Shown here: piece by piece, positions 49,467 through 56,489 of the stretch
How positions within the stretch are numbered: the stretch's first letter is position 1
Layout: every line of letters starts with the position of its first letter
NCBI GenBank assembly: GCA_025056175.1
Contig: JANWWK010000053.1
Span: forward strand, 1 to 64,000
Length of the DNA stretch: 64,000 nt
DNA from: Anaerolineales bacterium
GTDB taxonomy: Bacteria > Chloroflexota > Anaerolineae > Anaerolineales > Villigracilaceae
Direction of reading: 5' to 3'
Program-made: the position numbers and the translations under genes
Notes under the pieces: model-generated
The model's input: only the letters and a program-made list of their open reading frames with translations
Told to the model about the DNA's origin: nothing
Database searches by the model: none

Positions 49467-50075
49467 ATGTCGAGAATAGCGCATTTGAAATTTAACGATT
49501 CCGCACCCGATGTAGAACTTCTGACGGTCGAAGGTCAACCGGTGCGGCTCTCCACCTTCTGGCAAGGACGGGTGGTTGTGCTGGCATTTACCCGGCACTT
49601 CGGCTGCCCGCAGTGCAAAGAAATGGTGGATACACTTATCCACTATAAACCAGACATGGCCGCGCGCGGCCTGTCACTGGTCATCGTAACGCAGGGAACG
49701 CCAGAAGCTGCCAAAGCCTTCTGCGAGGAACGCGCTCCGGGCGCAATCTGCCTGGCCGACCCGGAACGAAGAGCCTACCACGCTTACGGACTGGGACGTG
49801 CTTCACTGTGGCAATCCATCCTTTCTGTGCGCGTATGGCGCTCGAACCGACGCCTGGCGCGCGAAAAAGGCTGGAAGCCCGAACTGCCTCCGCCCGGTCA
49901 GGATGCTTTTCAAATGTCCGGCACGTTCATCATCGGGCCAGACGGCAAAATCCGCCTTCCATATTACTATGATGACATCGCCGACCACCCACCCGTAGAA
50001 TTGCTCCTGCGCGGGGTGATGGGCATGGATTGGGCTGCGCCGCTGGATGCGCCGATTGCCGGAGGAGTATCGTGA
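49467..50075 (+). CDS. Peroxiredoxin-like (AhpC/TSA family) protein with CPQC motif
   Basis: A 202-residue thioredoxin-fold protein. The N-terminus SAPDVELLTVEGQPVRLSTF and VVVLAFTRHFGCPQCKEMVD fit AhpC/TSA-like peroxiredoxins of the group that carries a CxxC (CPQC) in place of the single peroxidatic Cys motif. Further on, LSLVIVTQGTPEAAKAFCEE and GAICLADPERRAYHAYGLGR are family blocks, and SGTFIIGPDGKIRLPYYYDD closes the fold. No signal peptide. Likely a thiol reductase or peroxidase; the substrate is unknown. It opens an operon with an ABC permease, ATPase and the putative selenocysteine thioredoxin lipoprotein, which suggests a shared thiol-redox theme. Confidence 0.82.
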   Translation: MSRIAHLKFNDSAPDVELLTVEGQPVRLSTFWQGRVVVLAFTRHFGCPQCKEMVDTLIHYKPDMAARGLSLVIVTQGTPEAAKAFCEERAPGAICLADPERRAYHAYGLGRASLWQSILSVRVWRSNRRLAREKGWKPELPPPGQDAFQMSGTFIIGPDGKIRLPYYYDDIADHPPVELLLRGVMGMDWAAPLDAPIAGGVS

Positions 50076-50077
50076 CG

Positions 50078-51241
50078 ATGGGACTGGCATTCTATCTCGC
50101 GTTCAAAGAAGTCTGGCGCAACAAAGGGCGTTTCTTGCTGGTCAGCCTGGTGATTGCGTTGATTACGTTGCTGGTGTTGTTCATTGCCGCTCTCGGCGAG
50201 GGCCTGGGGACGAATAACCGGGAGTACATCTCGAAACTCGATGGGCAGCTGGTGGTCTTCCTGGAAAAGTCGGATTACATCATTACCGCCAGCCGGCTGC
50301 GGCAATCTACCCTGCGGGCGGTGCGACGCGTCGAAGGTGTAGACGACGCCGGACCGGTTTCCACATCCAATACAGCCATTCTGCTTCCGCCGGGCAGCAA
50401 GAACGAAGTGCTGAAAGTTTCACTGCTGGGGGTCGAAGCCGGACGCCCGGGCTTTCCGCAATTGACCGCCGGACGCACTTTTCTCTCCTCCACCGCGCGC
50501 GAAGTCATCGTAGACCAGCGCGTTCTCGACCGCACTGACATTCAAATCGGCGATACCATCACCATCCGCTCCACGCAGGGTGTGGAAGACAACTTTTATG
50601 ATTTGAAGGTGGTCGGCACCACCAGCGGACAGGCATATTTCTTTCAACCTTCCATCTTCGTCACGCCAGCGGTGTGGGAAAAAATCCGCCCAAAGTCAGA
50701 TGCCGAACTGGGCAACACCGTCCCAGCCATCAACATTATCGTTGTGCGTGTAAAAGACCCGGCACAAATCGAACAAGTTAGAAACAACCTGCTGGAGAGC
50801 GTGAAAAACATCGAAGTCGCCGATATTCAGACGACCATCAATAACATCCCCGGTTACACCGCACAACAAGGCACAGTGCAAACGCAGGGCGGGTTTACGC
50901 TGCTGATTGGCATTCTGGTCATCGGCGGGTTTTTCCAGATTCAGGTTCTGCAAAAAGTGCCGCAAATTGGCGTGTTGAAAGCGATTGGGGCATCGAATCC
51001 GGTGGTGGGAGCAGCGGCAGTGATTCAAATTTCGCTGGTAACGGCTTTTGGCGTGGCTATCGGCGGCGTGCTGACCTGGCTGTTCTCACTCGGTTTTCCG
51101 CCCACCGTGCCGCTGTTCTTCAATGGTACCGCCTCGGCCCTGGCGCTGGCTGCGCTTCTGGCGATTGGACCGCTGGGCGGCCTGGTTTCGGTCATTTACG
51201 CGGTGCGTATCGAACCACTCAAAGCGTTGCGACTTTCTTAG
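50078..51241 (+). CDS. ABC transporter permease, FtsX/DevC family
   Basis: A 387-residue permease with an N-terminal helix (FYLAFKEVWRNKGRFLLVSL), a MacB-like external domain (about 45-255) and three C-terminal helices (for example TLLIGILVIGGFFQIQVLQK and VIQISLVTAFGVAIGGVLTW, with VPQIGVLKAIGASN as the coupling segment). The DevC/FtsX group normally works with an adaptor protein; none is seen here. GGAGGAG overlaps the end of the preceding gene; ATG 50078 is 2 nt after its stop, and GTG 50072 is an alternative. The ATPase gene follows after 8 nt. Confidence 0.88.
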   Translation: MGLAFYLAFKEVWRNKGRFLLVSLVIALITLLVLFIAALGEGLGTNNREYISKLDGQLVVFLEKSDYIITASRLRQSTLRAVRRVEGVDDAGPVSTSNTAILLPPGSKNEVLKVSLLGVEAGRPGFPQLTAGRTFLSSTAREVIVDQRVLDRTDIQIGDTITIRSTQGVEDNFYDLKVVGTTSGQAYFFQPSIFVTPAVWEKIRPKSDAELGNTVPAINIIVVRVKDPAQIEQVRNNLLESVKNIEVADIQTTINNIPGYTAQQGTVQTQGGFTLLIGILVIGGFFQIQVLQKVPQIGVLKAIGASNPVVGAAAVIQISLVTAFGVAIGGVLTWLFSLGFPPTVPLFFNGTASALALAALLAIGPLGGLVSVIYAVRIEPLKALRLS

Positions 51242-51249
51242 GAGACCCC

Positions 51250-52038
51250 ATGAGCGTTCTTGTGCATTCCTCCATGCCCTCTGTATTCACGGAGAACACT
51301 GTCCAGGCCAAACCAATTGCACTGGAAGTGCGAAACGTGGTGAAAACCTTCCCCACCGATAGCGGGCCTATCAACGCTGTGGATGACGTTTCGTTTTCGG
51401 TGCGACAGGGAGAATTCGTGGCACTGGTCGGACCGAGCGGCTCTGGTAAGACGACCATGCTCTCTATCCTGGCAGCCCTGCTCACGCCCACCAGCGGTCA
51501 GGTGCTGATAGACGGCCAAGACCTGGCAAAGATGAACGAACGCGAGCGTGTGCGCCTGCGGCGCGAAAAAATCGGGTTTACATTTCAATCGAACAATCTG
51601 ATTCCGTTCCTGAACGCGCTCGAAAACGTGGAATTGATGCTGCGCCTGAACAACCGGCTCGACAAAGCTGGACGGATGCGCTCTGCTGAACTGCTGGCGC
51701 GGCTGGGGCTGGGAGAACGTCTGTACAACCTGCCCAGCCAGATGTCGGGCGGTCAGCAGCAACGCGTTGCGATTGCCCGCGCGCTCATCCACGCGCCGAC
51801 CGTCGTCCTGGCCGACGAACCCACCGCCAGCCTGGATACCGAACGCGCTTTTCAGGTCGTGCAGACCTTTGCGGCGCTCATTCACGAAAACGACCGCGCC
51901 GGCATCATGGTCACACACGATTTGCGGATGTGCCAGTATGTAGACCGCGTTCTGCAAATGCGGGATGGCAAACTGGTGCGGGTGTATGAAACACGCGAGG
52001 AAATCCTCGCCCTGGCTCGGGGCGGGGAACATGAATGA
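51250..52038 (+). CDS. ABC transporter ATP-binding protein, LolD/DevA type
   Basis: A 262-residue ATPase partner of the preceding permease. An N-terminal extension of about 20 residues precedes the fold. Motifs: Walker [16 protein letters not shown]-loop FTFQSNNLIPFLNALENVEL, signature [16 protein letters not shown], Walker [14 protein letters not shown]-loop MVTHDLRM. TAGGAGA lies before ATG 51250 and overlaps the stop of the permease gene. The thioredoxin-like lipoprotein gene follows 34 nt later on the same strand. Confidence 0.92.
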   Translation: MSVLVHSSMPSVFTENTVQAKPIALEVRNVVKTFPTDSGPINAVDDVSFSVRQGEFVALVGPSGSGKTTMLSILAALLTPTSGQVLIDGQDLAKMNERERVRLRREKIGFTFQSNNLIPFLNALENVELMLRLNNRLDKAGRMRSAELLARLGLGERLYNLPSQMSGGQQQRVAIARALIHAPTVVLADEPTASLDTERAFQVVQTFAALIHENDRAGIMVTHDLRMCQYVDRVLQMRDGKLVRVYETREEILALARGGEHE

Positions 52039-52072: not shown

Positions 52073-52561
52073 ATGAGACGTTTATGGATACTGACTCTGA
52101 TATTTGTCCTGAGTGCGTGCGCAACGCCCCCAACCATCTCTACCGCTACCGCGCCGTCCACCGCTCCCGAAACGCCTGCCGCAGGCGTCGAAACCGTGCA
52201 AGCCCCACAGCCGACGCCACAGGCCACTTCGCGGGGCGACCAGCTGGTCGCCAGCGACCCCGCGAGCGTGCAGGTTGGGATGGGAAAACCCGTTCTGCTG
52301 GAGTTCTTCCGCTTCACCTGAGGTGCCTGCCGCGCGATGGCGCCCATGGTGCATGGGCTGGAAGCAAAATATGCCGGACAGATTGACTTTTTCTATCTCG
52401 ATGCGAGCGACCCGGCTACCCAGGAATTTCAGCGCACGTATGAGTTTCGCTATCAACCTTACTTTGTGCTTTTGGATGCCGAGGGGAACGTGGTTAAACG
52501 CTGGACGGGCATGGTGCGGCAACAAGATTTCGAGGCGGCCTTTGCCGAAGTGCTGAAATAA
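52073..52561 (+). CDS. Thioredoxin-like lipoprotein, putative selenoprotein (Sec83, in-frame TGA 52319-52321)
   Basis: Read through the TGA this is a 162-residue lipoprotein. Signal MRRLWILTLIFVLSAC ends in lipobox LSAC (Cys16); a Pro/Ala/Thr linker follows; the thioredoxin fold begins at VGMGKPVLLEFFRFT. The next codons are TGA-GGT-GCC-TGC, so the CxxC motif becomes U-G-A-C, and the frame continues with RAMAPMVHGLEAKYAGQIDF, FYLDASDPATQEF and YQPYFVLLDAEGNVVKRW (cis-Pro region), ending at TAA 52561. The conserved fold on both sides argues that TGA is read as selenocysteine at the nucleophilic position. GCCCATG-GTG-CATGGGC (52342-52358) forms a hairpin 20-37 nt after the TGA with G in the loop, as in bacterial SECIS. 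AGGAG precedes ATG 52073. Alternatives: a TGC/TGT to TGA mutation or base-call error. Confidence 0.75.
52342..52358 (+). promoter_or_regulatory. Putative bacterial SECIS hairpin
   Basis: GCCCATG and CATGGGC pair perfectly (7 bp, loop GTG; or 6 bp with loop GGTGC). The apical loop lies about 26-27 nt after the TGA at 52319-52321 and begins with G, within the spacing and loop rules described for bacterial SECIS elements. The same bases encode APMVHG, so chance pairing is possible. Confidence 0.55.
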
Positions 52562-55051: not shown

Positions 55052-56449
55052 TTACCTCAACAATCCTTTGCAAAAGTTCAGGAATTTCTGGATGTCCTCG
55101 AAATGGGTAACCATACCGATTGAGATACGTACCGCGCCGCTCGATTTGCCATCAATACACAGACGGAAATCGTCGAGCGTCAGACGGCTCTCACGGCCAG
55201 GCCGGTTGAAGCACACATCCAGTTCAACGCGCGAAATGCCGAGCGCCACCTCACCGGCACCAGGATTGCAGAAACAGCCGGTGCGCAGGGAAATACTGGC
55301 GCGGTTGGCCTGTTCTTCGATGAAACGATGGTCAATAGCGTGGCCTTGCGCGTCAAAGAAATTGACTGTCACTGCACCGCCGCGCCCTTCGGTATCGGTC
55401 GGCCCATACACGCGGACAAGGGGCAAACCGGTGGAATGGCGCATGTCCGTCAGATTGTCCAGGAGCCAGCCCGTCAGCGTCCGCACACGCTCTTGAATGG
55501 TCTCGATGCCAATAGATTCGAGGTGTCGCAGGCCAATTTCCACTGCCGGGATGTTCAGGTAGTCCACTGTGCCATCTTCAAAGGCAGCATGGCCCTCTGC
55601 CAGGTAGTATCTTCCGCCTTGCACCGAAGCGACCGTAATCGTACCGCCGGCAAACCAGGGGCGGCGCAGTTTGTGTAGTTTATCACGTCGGGCAATCAAC
55701 GCGCCAATGCCGGTGGGGTAACCGAACATTTTGTAGAACGAGAGCGGGATAAAATCTGGCTTAACCTGCGAAAGGTCGAGGCGGCTGGTGGGAGCAAACG
55801 CAGCGGCATCGAGCAGGACATCCCAGCCGCGCTCCTGCGCTTTCTCAACCCATGAGAGCGGATGTTTGACCGAAGAGAAGTTGGATTGCGCCGGGTAAGC
55901 AAACAGGTTATCGGCATCAGGCCGCGCCAGAGAGAGATAGGCGTCCAGCTGAGCTTCATCCACACGCAAATCGGGCAAAACAACCGGCAAATAGGTTACT
56001 TCCGCGCCGCGCGCCCGCGCAAACTCACGAATGCCGTTGACTGAGTTGTGATTATCGAACGTCAACAGATACCGTCCGCCCGGTGCAAAGGGATACGATT
56101 CGCCCACCAGTTTGAGCGCACCGCTGGCATTGGGGGTGAAGGCTACATCATATTCGTGCGGGTCAGCGCGGAAGAAGTGCAAGACATATTCCCGCGTGCG
56201 TTCCACCAGACGGGTGGCGGCCATCGAGGTCGGGTTGGTGGAATGCGGGTTACCATACACGCCAGAAAGCAACAGTTCCTGATGCTTTCGCACCTGCGAA
56301 TCGGCGTATAACCCACCACCGGTGTAATCGAGATAGACCTGTCCGGTTCGGTCCAGACGGCTGTAATCGCTGGCACGCAATTCATCAAGAATATGGGTCG
56401 TTGCGTAGGTCGGGTATCGTTGCAAGAAGGCAGAATACGCTGCGTTCAT
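55052..56449 (-). CDS. Class V aminotransferase, cysteine desulfurase / MoCo sulfurase N-domain-like
   Basis: A 465-residue PLP enzyme of the NifS/Csd/molybdenum cofactor sulfurase group. Motifs: YLDYTGGGLYADSQVRKHQE, GNPHSTNPTSMAATRLVERT, FTPNASGALKLVGESYPF, FDNHNSVNGIREFARARGAE, DAAAFAPTSRLDLSQVKPDF, the PLP lysine in PLSFYKMFGYPTGIGALIAR, and a candidate persulfide Cys in ISLRTGCFCNPGAGE. This pattern is closest to the N-terminal domain of MoCo sulfurases, without their MOSC domain. It may supply sulfur; its neighbour cysH makes sulfite, so a sulfur theme is plausible. AGGAGA precedes ATG 56449. Confidence 0.85.
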   Translation of the reverse strand: MNAAYSAFLQRYPTYATTHILDELRASDYSRLDRTGQVYLDYTGGGLYADSQVRKHQELLLSGVYGNPHSTNPTSMAATRLVERTREYVLHFFRADPHEYDVAFTPNASGALKLVGESYPFAPGGRYLLTFDNHNSVNGIREFARARGAEVTYLPVVLPDLRVDEAQLDAYLSLARPDADNLFAYPAQSNFSSVKHPLSWVEKAQERGWDVLLDAAAFAPTSRLDLSQVKPDFIPLSFYKMFGYPTGIGALIARRDKLHKLRRPWFAGGTITVASVQGGRYYLAEGHAAFEDGTVDYLNIPAVEIGLRHLESIGIETIQERVRTLTGWLLDNLTDMRHSTGLPLVRVYGPTDTEGRGGAVTVNFFDAQGHAIDHRFIEEQANRASISLRTGCFCNPGAGEVALGISRVELDVCFNRPGRESRLTLDDFRLCIDGKSSGAVRISIGMVTHFEDIQKFLNFCKGLLR

Positions 56450-56489
56450 TGGCCGGCTCTCCTGGGGTAATTTAACCATAGAATTTGCC

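Follow-up and report, generated by a model that had tools for sequence, protein, structure and literature searches.

The gene at positions 52073 to 52561 of the window (the whole 64,000-nucleotide stretch analyzed here, from contig JANWWK010000053.1 of an Anaerolineales bacterium) almost certainly encodes a selenoprotein, judging from its sequence and that of its relatives. An ATG at 52073 starts an 82-aa open reading frame (MRRLWILTLIFVLSAC...) that is closed by a TGA at 52319-52321, and beyond this codon GGT GCC TGC follows in frame, with no further stop before a TAA at 52559-52561. The original prediction had placed an in-frame TGA at the first Cys of a CxxC motif; its coordinates are correct, and the frame is open to the TAA ending at 52561. 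When TGA is read as selenocysteine (Sec, U), the product is a 162-aa protein with an LSAC lipobox (residues 13 to 16), the active site FFRFTUGAC, and a thioredoxin core, as seen in the joined sequence MRRLWILTLIFVLSACATPP...VLLEFFRFTUGACRAMAPMVHGLEAKYAGQIDFFYLDASDP...YQPYFVLLDAEGNVVKRWTGMV.... Taken together, the orthologues, the Sec machinery, the conservation of the SECIS hairpin, and purifying selection indicate a selenoprotein rather than a pseudogene or a sequencing error. The features of the locus are listed in Table 1.

Table 1. Features of the Sec-thioredoxin lipoprotein gene and its upstream neighbors (window coordinates)
Feature	Position	Strand	Evidence
Sec-thioredoxin lipoprotein gene, 162 aa, U83 (UGAC), probable selenoprotein	52073..52561	+	ORF reading, domain match, orthologues
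Predicted type II signal peptide, lipobox LSA/C (MRRLWILTLIFVLSAC)	52073..52120	+	Sequence; lipobox-like motif in homologues
Selenocysteine UGA codon, first position of UxxC motif	52319..52321	+	74 aligned domains
bSECIS hairpin: stem 52342-52348/52352-52358, loop GUG 52349-52351	52342..52358	+	Comparison, folding
Thioredoxin fold domain	52280..52558	+	Pfam; AlphaFold2 model; Foldseek
AhpC/TSA peroxiredoxin-like protein with CPQC, first gene of putative operon	49467..50075	+	PF00578; kept in G001
FtsX-like permease, same putative operon as thioredoxin	50078..51241	+	PF02687; kept in G001
ABC transporter ATPase, 34 nt upstream of thioredoxin gene, putative operon	51250..52038	+	PF00005; order kept in G001/Nak57

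Two possible explanations for the TGA are a decayed gene and a sequencing or assembly error, with a Cys codon (TGC or TGT) mutated or misread as TGA. A single base change would suffice, and the assembly is a draft of 95 contigs. However, this TGA recurs independently in two further genomes of the genus and in about a hundred of the order. The two same-genus orthologues (71% identity in G001 and 60% in G003) each carry one TGA, at the same codon. We surveyed 301 genomes of the order, counting a relative at E <= 1e-12, and found one in 138 of them; in 106 genomes the best match has one in-frame TGA, in 30 it has none, and there are two further weak matches. The count of 106 refers to the presence of a TGA in the best match; its placement was read in 53 aligned copies, and it lies at the active-site codon in all 53. 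In the alignment of 74 homologous domains from the fetched loci, the column at the TGA codon contains U in 53, C in 16, and D, S, or A in 5, so that the homologues show mostly Sec or Cys at this position, as anticipated. The region past the TGA is under purifying selection, with a median dN/dS of 0.23 (341 pairs) and zero further stops, which agrees with the original expectation that the 3' half would not be decayed in homologues. These observations, and a SECIS that is kept only in TGA forms, leave a pseudogene or an error with a negligible likelihood.

Among the matches from a profile search of public GTDB contigs, 81 had U and 2 had C; this search used conserved patterns that favor Sec forms, and its set partly overlaps the first one (e.g., the L122 contig, QEXW01000061.1, agrees with G001:C36 in length and match region). 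The records containing these loci are titled Anaerolineae, Anaerolineales, Chloroflexi, and similar, and outside the class Anaerolineae there were few, weak matches among 400 genomes of the phylum. The lipoprotein subfamily is nearly confined to Anaerolineae. One family locus (L201, JAKOWL010000208.1) lies in a record titled Pseudomonadota, perhaps through a binning error. The tree requires a minimum of four changes of the U label, in either direction. Some loci depart from the common form: L110 has tandem Sec-thioredoxin domains in one open stretch (UPVC, frame residue 190; UTTC, residue 345), and L120 has two UxxC domains in two adjacent frames. Asp, Ser, or Ala occupies the Sec position in L084, L087, L089, L099, and the first domain of L106; these homologues, located near Lgt/TlpA and often near copper-export genes, are apparently redox-dead paralogues that have kept the fold.

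A genome that decodes UGA as Sec should encode the corresponding machinery, and the original prediction had called for a genome-wide search for selA, selB, selD, and tRNA-Sec. In the genome to which the window belongs (G000; 3.57 Mb, 95 contigs), family searches recovered all four: SelA (E 9e-132), the C-terminal wing domain of SelB (E 1e-19), SelD (E 6e-108), and tRNA-Sec (76 bits, anticodon tca [UCA]). SelD, encoded at L051 (G000:C31:24680-25612), itself has one in-frame TGA, in SSCAGUASKL, which makes it a second likely selenoprotein gene in the genome. A hairpin predicted from this single sequence follows the selD TGA (GCGCAG-GUU-CUGCGU), and its GGUUC apex is shared with many thioredoxin homologues. 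No convincing candidate for a further read-through gene emerged from a scan of the window, which was insensitive, its overlap filter having dropped the thioredoxin gene too. Across the order, selA was found in 101 of the 106 genomes with a TGA versus 18 of the 30 without one (Fisher p 5e-6, kinship ignored), and the five TGA-bearing genomes lacking a selA match are all incomplete assemblies (68 to 91% completeness).

The TGA could also be recoded without selenium, either as Trp or another residue or by plain stop-codon read-through, given that TGA reassignment occurs in some bacteria and that read-through is possible. Yet active-site forms without TGA have Cys in the aligned column, and Trp does not occur there. 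All components of the Sec machinery are encoded in the genome, the hairpin agrees with the bSECIS model, and TGA serves as an ordinary stop for other genes in the window, such as that of the ABC ATPase ending at 52038. The orthologues rule out the Trp reassignment, along with the pseudogene and sequencing-error readings, and recoding without selenium as a whole is highly improbable, if marginally less so than an error. Decoding as Sec is the reading that we retain.

The published bSECIS model has a loop of 3 to 9 nt with G in one of its first two positions, a stem of 4 to 16 bp, a spacing of 16 to 37 nt, and an MFE of -7.5 or lower (PMC13188914). The window hairpin, GCCCAUG-GUG-CAUGGGC, lies within all of these limits: a 7-bp stem, a 3-nt loop opening with G, 27 nt between UGA and loop, and -11.3 kcal/mol for the isolated 22-mer. 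Its stability in the single sequence is unremarkable, since 17 of 200 shuffles fold equally well, and in a longer segment around it a different fold is preferred, with a stability not above that of shuffles. The evidence for a SECIS therefore rests on comparison. Numbering the U of UGA as 1, positions 25 to 29 pair with positions 35 to 39 in all 53 Sec forms but in none of the 16 Cys forms, and loop bases G31-U32 are invariant among the Sec forms. The hairpin is also kept in 81/81 TGA matches of the public contigs, which partly overlap the first set. Such retention in TGA but not in Cys homologues is beyond chance, and the hairpin first proposed about 27 nt past the TGA holds up as a SECIS.

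Pairs within the stem have changed together. Positions 28 and 36 are A with U in 38 cases and G with C in 15, with zero mixed cases. Position 36 falls on the synonymous third base of a His codon, and the protein therefore does not account for this covariation: CAT accompanies A28 in 38/38 cases and CAC accompanies G28 in 15/15 (Fisher p 1.6e-13, kinship ignored). A CCC/GGG pairing has become CCU/AGG in two sequences, replacing Gly by Arg, and UCC/GGA in one, with the pair kept each time. In one Sec form among the public contigs, GTC and CAT occur together, which gives a wobble pair instead of a Watson-Crick pair. When codons were shuffled among rows with the same amino acid, a mean of 39.7 stems (maximum, 45) remained intact, versus 53 observed. 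Codons +8 and +12 are synonymously frozen, Pro +8 being CCC in 48/52 and Gly +12 being GGG in 50/51, whereas all four Pro codons occur at +31 and the Ala, Leu, and Thr codons of other positions are freely variable. Correcting for phylogeny leaves two well-supported independent pairs, both concordant, and seven pairs on the best tree.

The 162-aa protein belongs to the thioredoxin superfamily by score, fold, and placement of the redox motif. In a Pfam search, it scores 38.8 bits with PF00085 (Thioredoxin; cut-off, 23.5) and a lower 28.1 with PF13098 (cut-off, 27). In the AlphaFold2 model, elements follow the order E-H-E-H-E-E-H from residue 74 with a mean pLDDT of >90 for the domain, and U83 immediately precedes helix 84-99, which puts the redox motif at the N terminus of helix 1. 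The closest solved structures to the model are thioredoxins (Foldseek; E about 3e-8), and a PDB search with the family profile matches thioredoxins as well as protein disulfide isomerases, the latter in their thioredoxin domains.

The original prediction of a membrane-anchored, extracytoplasmic location draws its support from the lipobox, which is well conserved in the homologous sequences (a lipobox-like motif in 54 of 68). Three Lgt matches in the genome go with the lipobox Cys, as expected for a bacterial lipoprotein. The linker between the predicted lipid anchor and the thioredoxin domain differs in sequence among orthologues. This bears on another possibility, namely, that the UGA acts mainly as a selenium-dependent switch, the truncated 82-aa lipoprotein functioning as a short form under selenium scarcity. 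Truncation would indeed yield a lipid-anchored linker peptide, but the linker is not conserved, and a short form without the thioredoxin domain was not seen among the homologues; we consider a switch very unlikely, although it is the least improbable of the alternatives to a full-length selenoprotein raised so far.

UxxC thioredoxins are a known kind of selenoprotein (PMC13188914, e.g., WP_010956703.1; earlier counts in PMC1794560), and the thioredoxin lipoprotein is a subfamily within it, sharing the PF00085 fold, Sec as the first residue of UxxC, and a bacterial SECIS just downstream. Compared with that kind in general, the window protein is a predicted exported lipoprotein with a long linker, is Anaerolineae centered, falls far below the equivalog cut-off of classical thioredoxin TrxA (TIGR01068; 37.2 versus 96.8 bits), and has a conserved MAPxVHGLExKY segment whose coding sequence doubles as the SECIS. 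Two other selenoproteins listed in PMC13188914 are similar. With the thiol:disulfide interchange selenoprotein (PF13098, UxxC) it shares UxxC and the thioredoxin fold, yet it scores higher with PF00085 and has no membrane domain beyond the lipoprotein signal. With SaoT it shares a thioredoxin-like UxxC, but it had no match to the SaoT model (NF040730) at E <= 0.1. ResA-type thioredoxins are also of a membrane-tethered extracytoplasmic type, as predicted here; the match to PRK03147 is weak (17.7 versus 170 bits, far under the ResA cut-off), and the window protein has Sec in place of Cys. No model in NCBIfam of June 2026 claims the protein, and our search of open-licence papers found no description of the lipoprotein subfamily, although automated Sec-thioredoxin searches elsewhere may already have counted members.

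Gene structure, recoding machinery, SECIS selection, thioredoxin fold, and lipobox are the steps of our proposed mechanism that sequence supports. SelB and Sec-tRNA(Sec) would decode the UGA as Sec, aided by the hairpin 27 nt downstream. The product would be exported and lipid modified at Cys16, its flexible linker anchoring it on the outside of the membrane, with Sec83 as the nucleophile of the thioredoxin domain and Cys86 as its partner. The direction of the redox reaction, the electron donor, and the substrates are our inference: the protein probably acts as a thiol/selenol-disulfide oxidoreductase that reduces extracytoplasmic targets, a role held with less assurance than its identity as a selenoprotein. 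It might be recharged by a DsbD/CcdA-type transmembrane protein; the genome encodes a DsbD_TM protein that could feed electrons outward.

Gene neighborhoods vary. In the window, the thioredoxin gene is the last of a putative peroxiredoxin/FtsX/ABC operon on one strand with short gaps, and the same-genus genome G001/Nak57 retains the order peroxiredoxin-FtsX-ABC ATPase-thioredoxin. An aminotransferase class V-like protein (identified by eye; 55052-56479, minus strand) lies a few genes away. In other, more distant families of the order, Sec and Cys forms in many cases directly precede csoR, a copZ-like gene with an HMA domain, and a gene for a copA-like P-type ATPase, often together with a divergent TlpA-like gene and lgt (the latter named by eye). 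This cluster occurs in most of L082 to L101 and in L106, L107, L112, L113, L117, and L120. The main job of the protein may accordingly be copper handling, which is compatible with a selenoprotein: the Sec/Cys pair would reduce or bind thiols of extracytoplasmic copper sites alongside CsoR-CopZ-CopA export. We regard this as possible but rather unlikely, since many loci have such neighbors, whereas the window's genus has peroxiredoxin and FtsX/ABC genes and the commonest upstream neighbor in other members is a divergent aldehyde dehydrogenase gene (47/80 public loci). No universal partner gene was found across the loci, and because the lineage-specific neighborhoods differ, naming substrates is guesswork.

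Chances seem to us evenly balanced that these proteins form an undescribed, Anaerolineae-centered family of lipid-anchored Sec-thioredoxins that serve copper or envelope redox homeostasis on the outside of the membrane, and that an mRNA hairpin has shaped their VHGLE residues after the active site. The last element is suggested by the Gly-to-Arg replacement that keeps the stem base pair in two sequences. The 53 Sec and 16 Cys homologues are an exceptionally clear example of joint protein and SECIS constraint on a coding sequence, and the Asp/Ser/Ala copies and the csoR-copZ-copA neighbors suggest testable functions. Standard gene calling would cut a gene with an internal TGA to a short fragment, which affects about a hundred of the searched genomes of the order; the selenium use of Chloroflexota, a major environmental phylum, is therefore probably underestimated.
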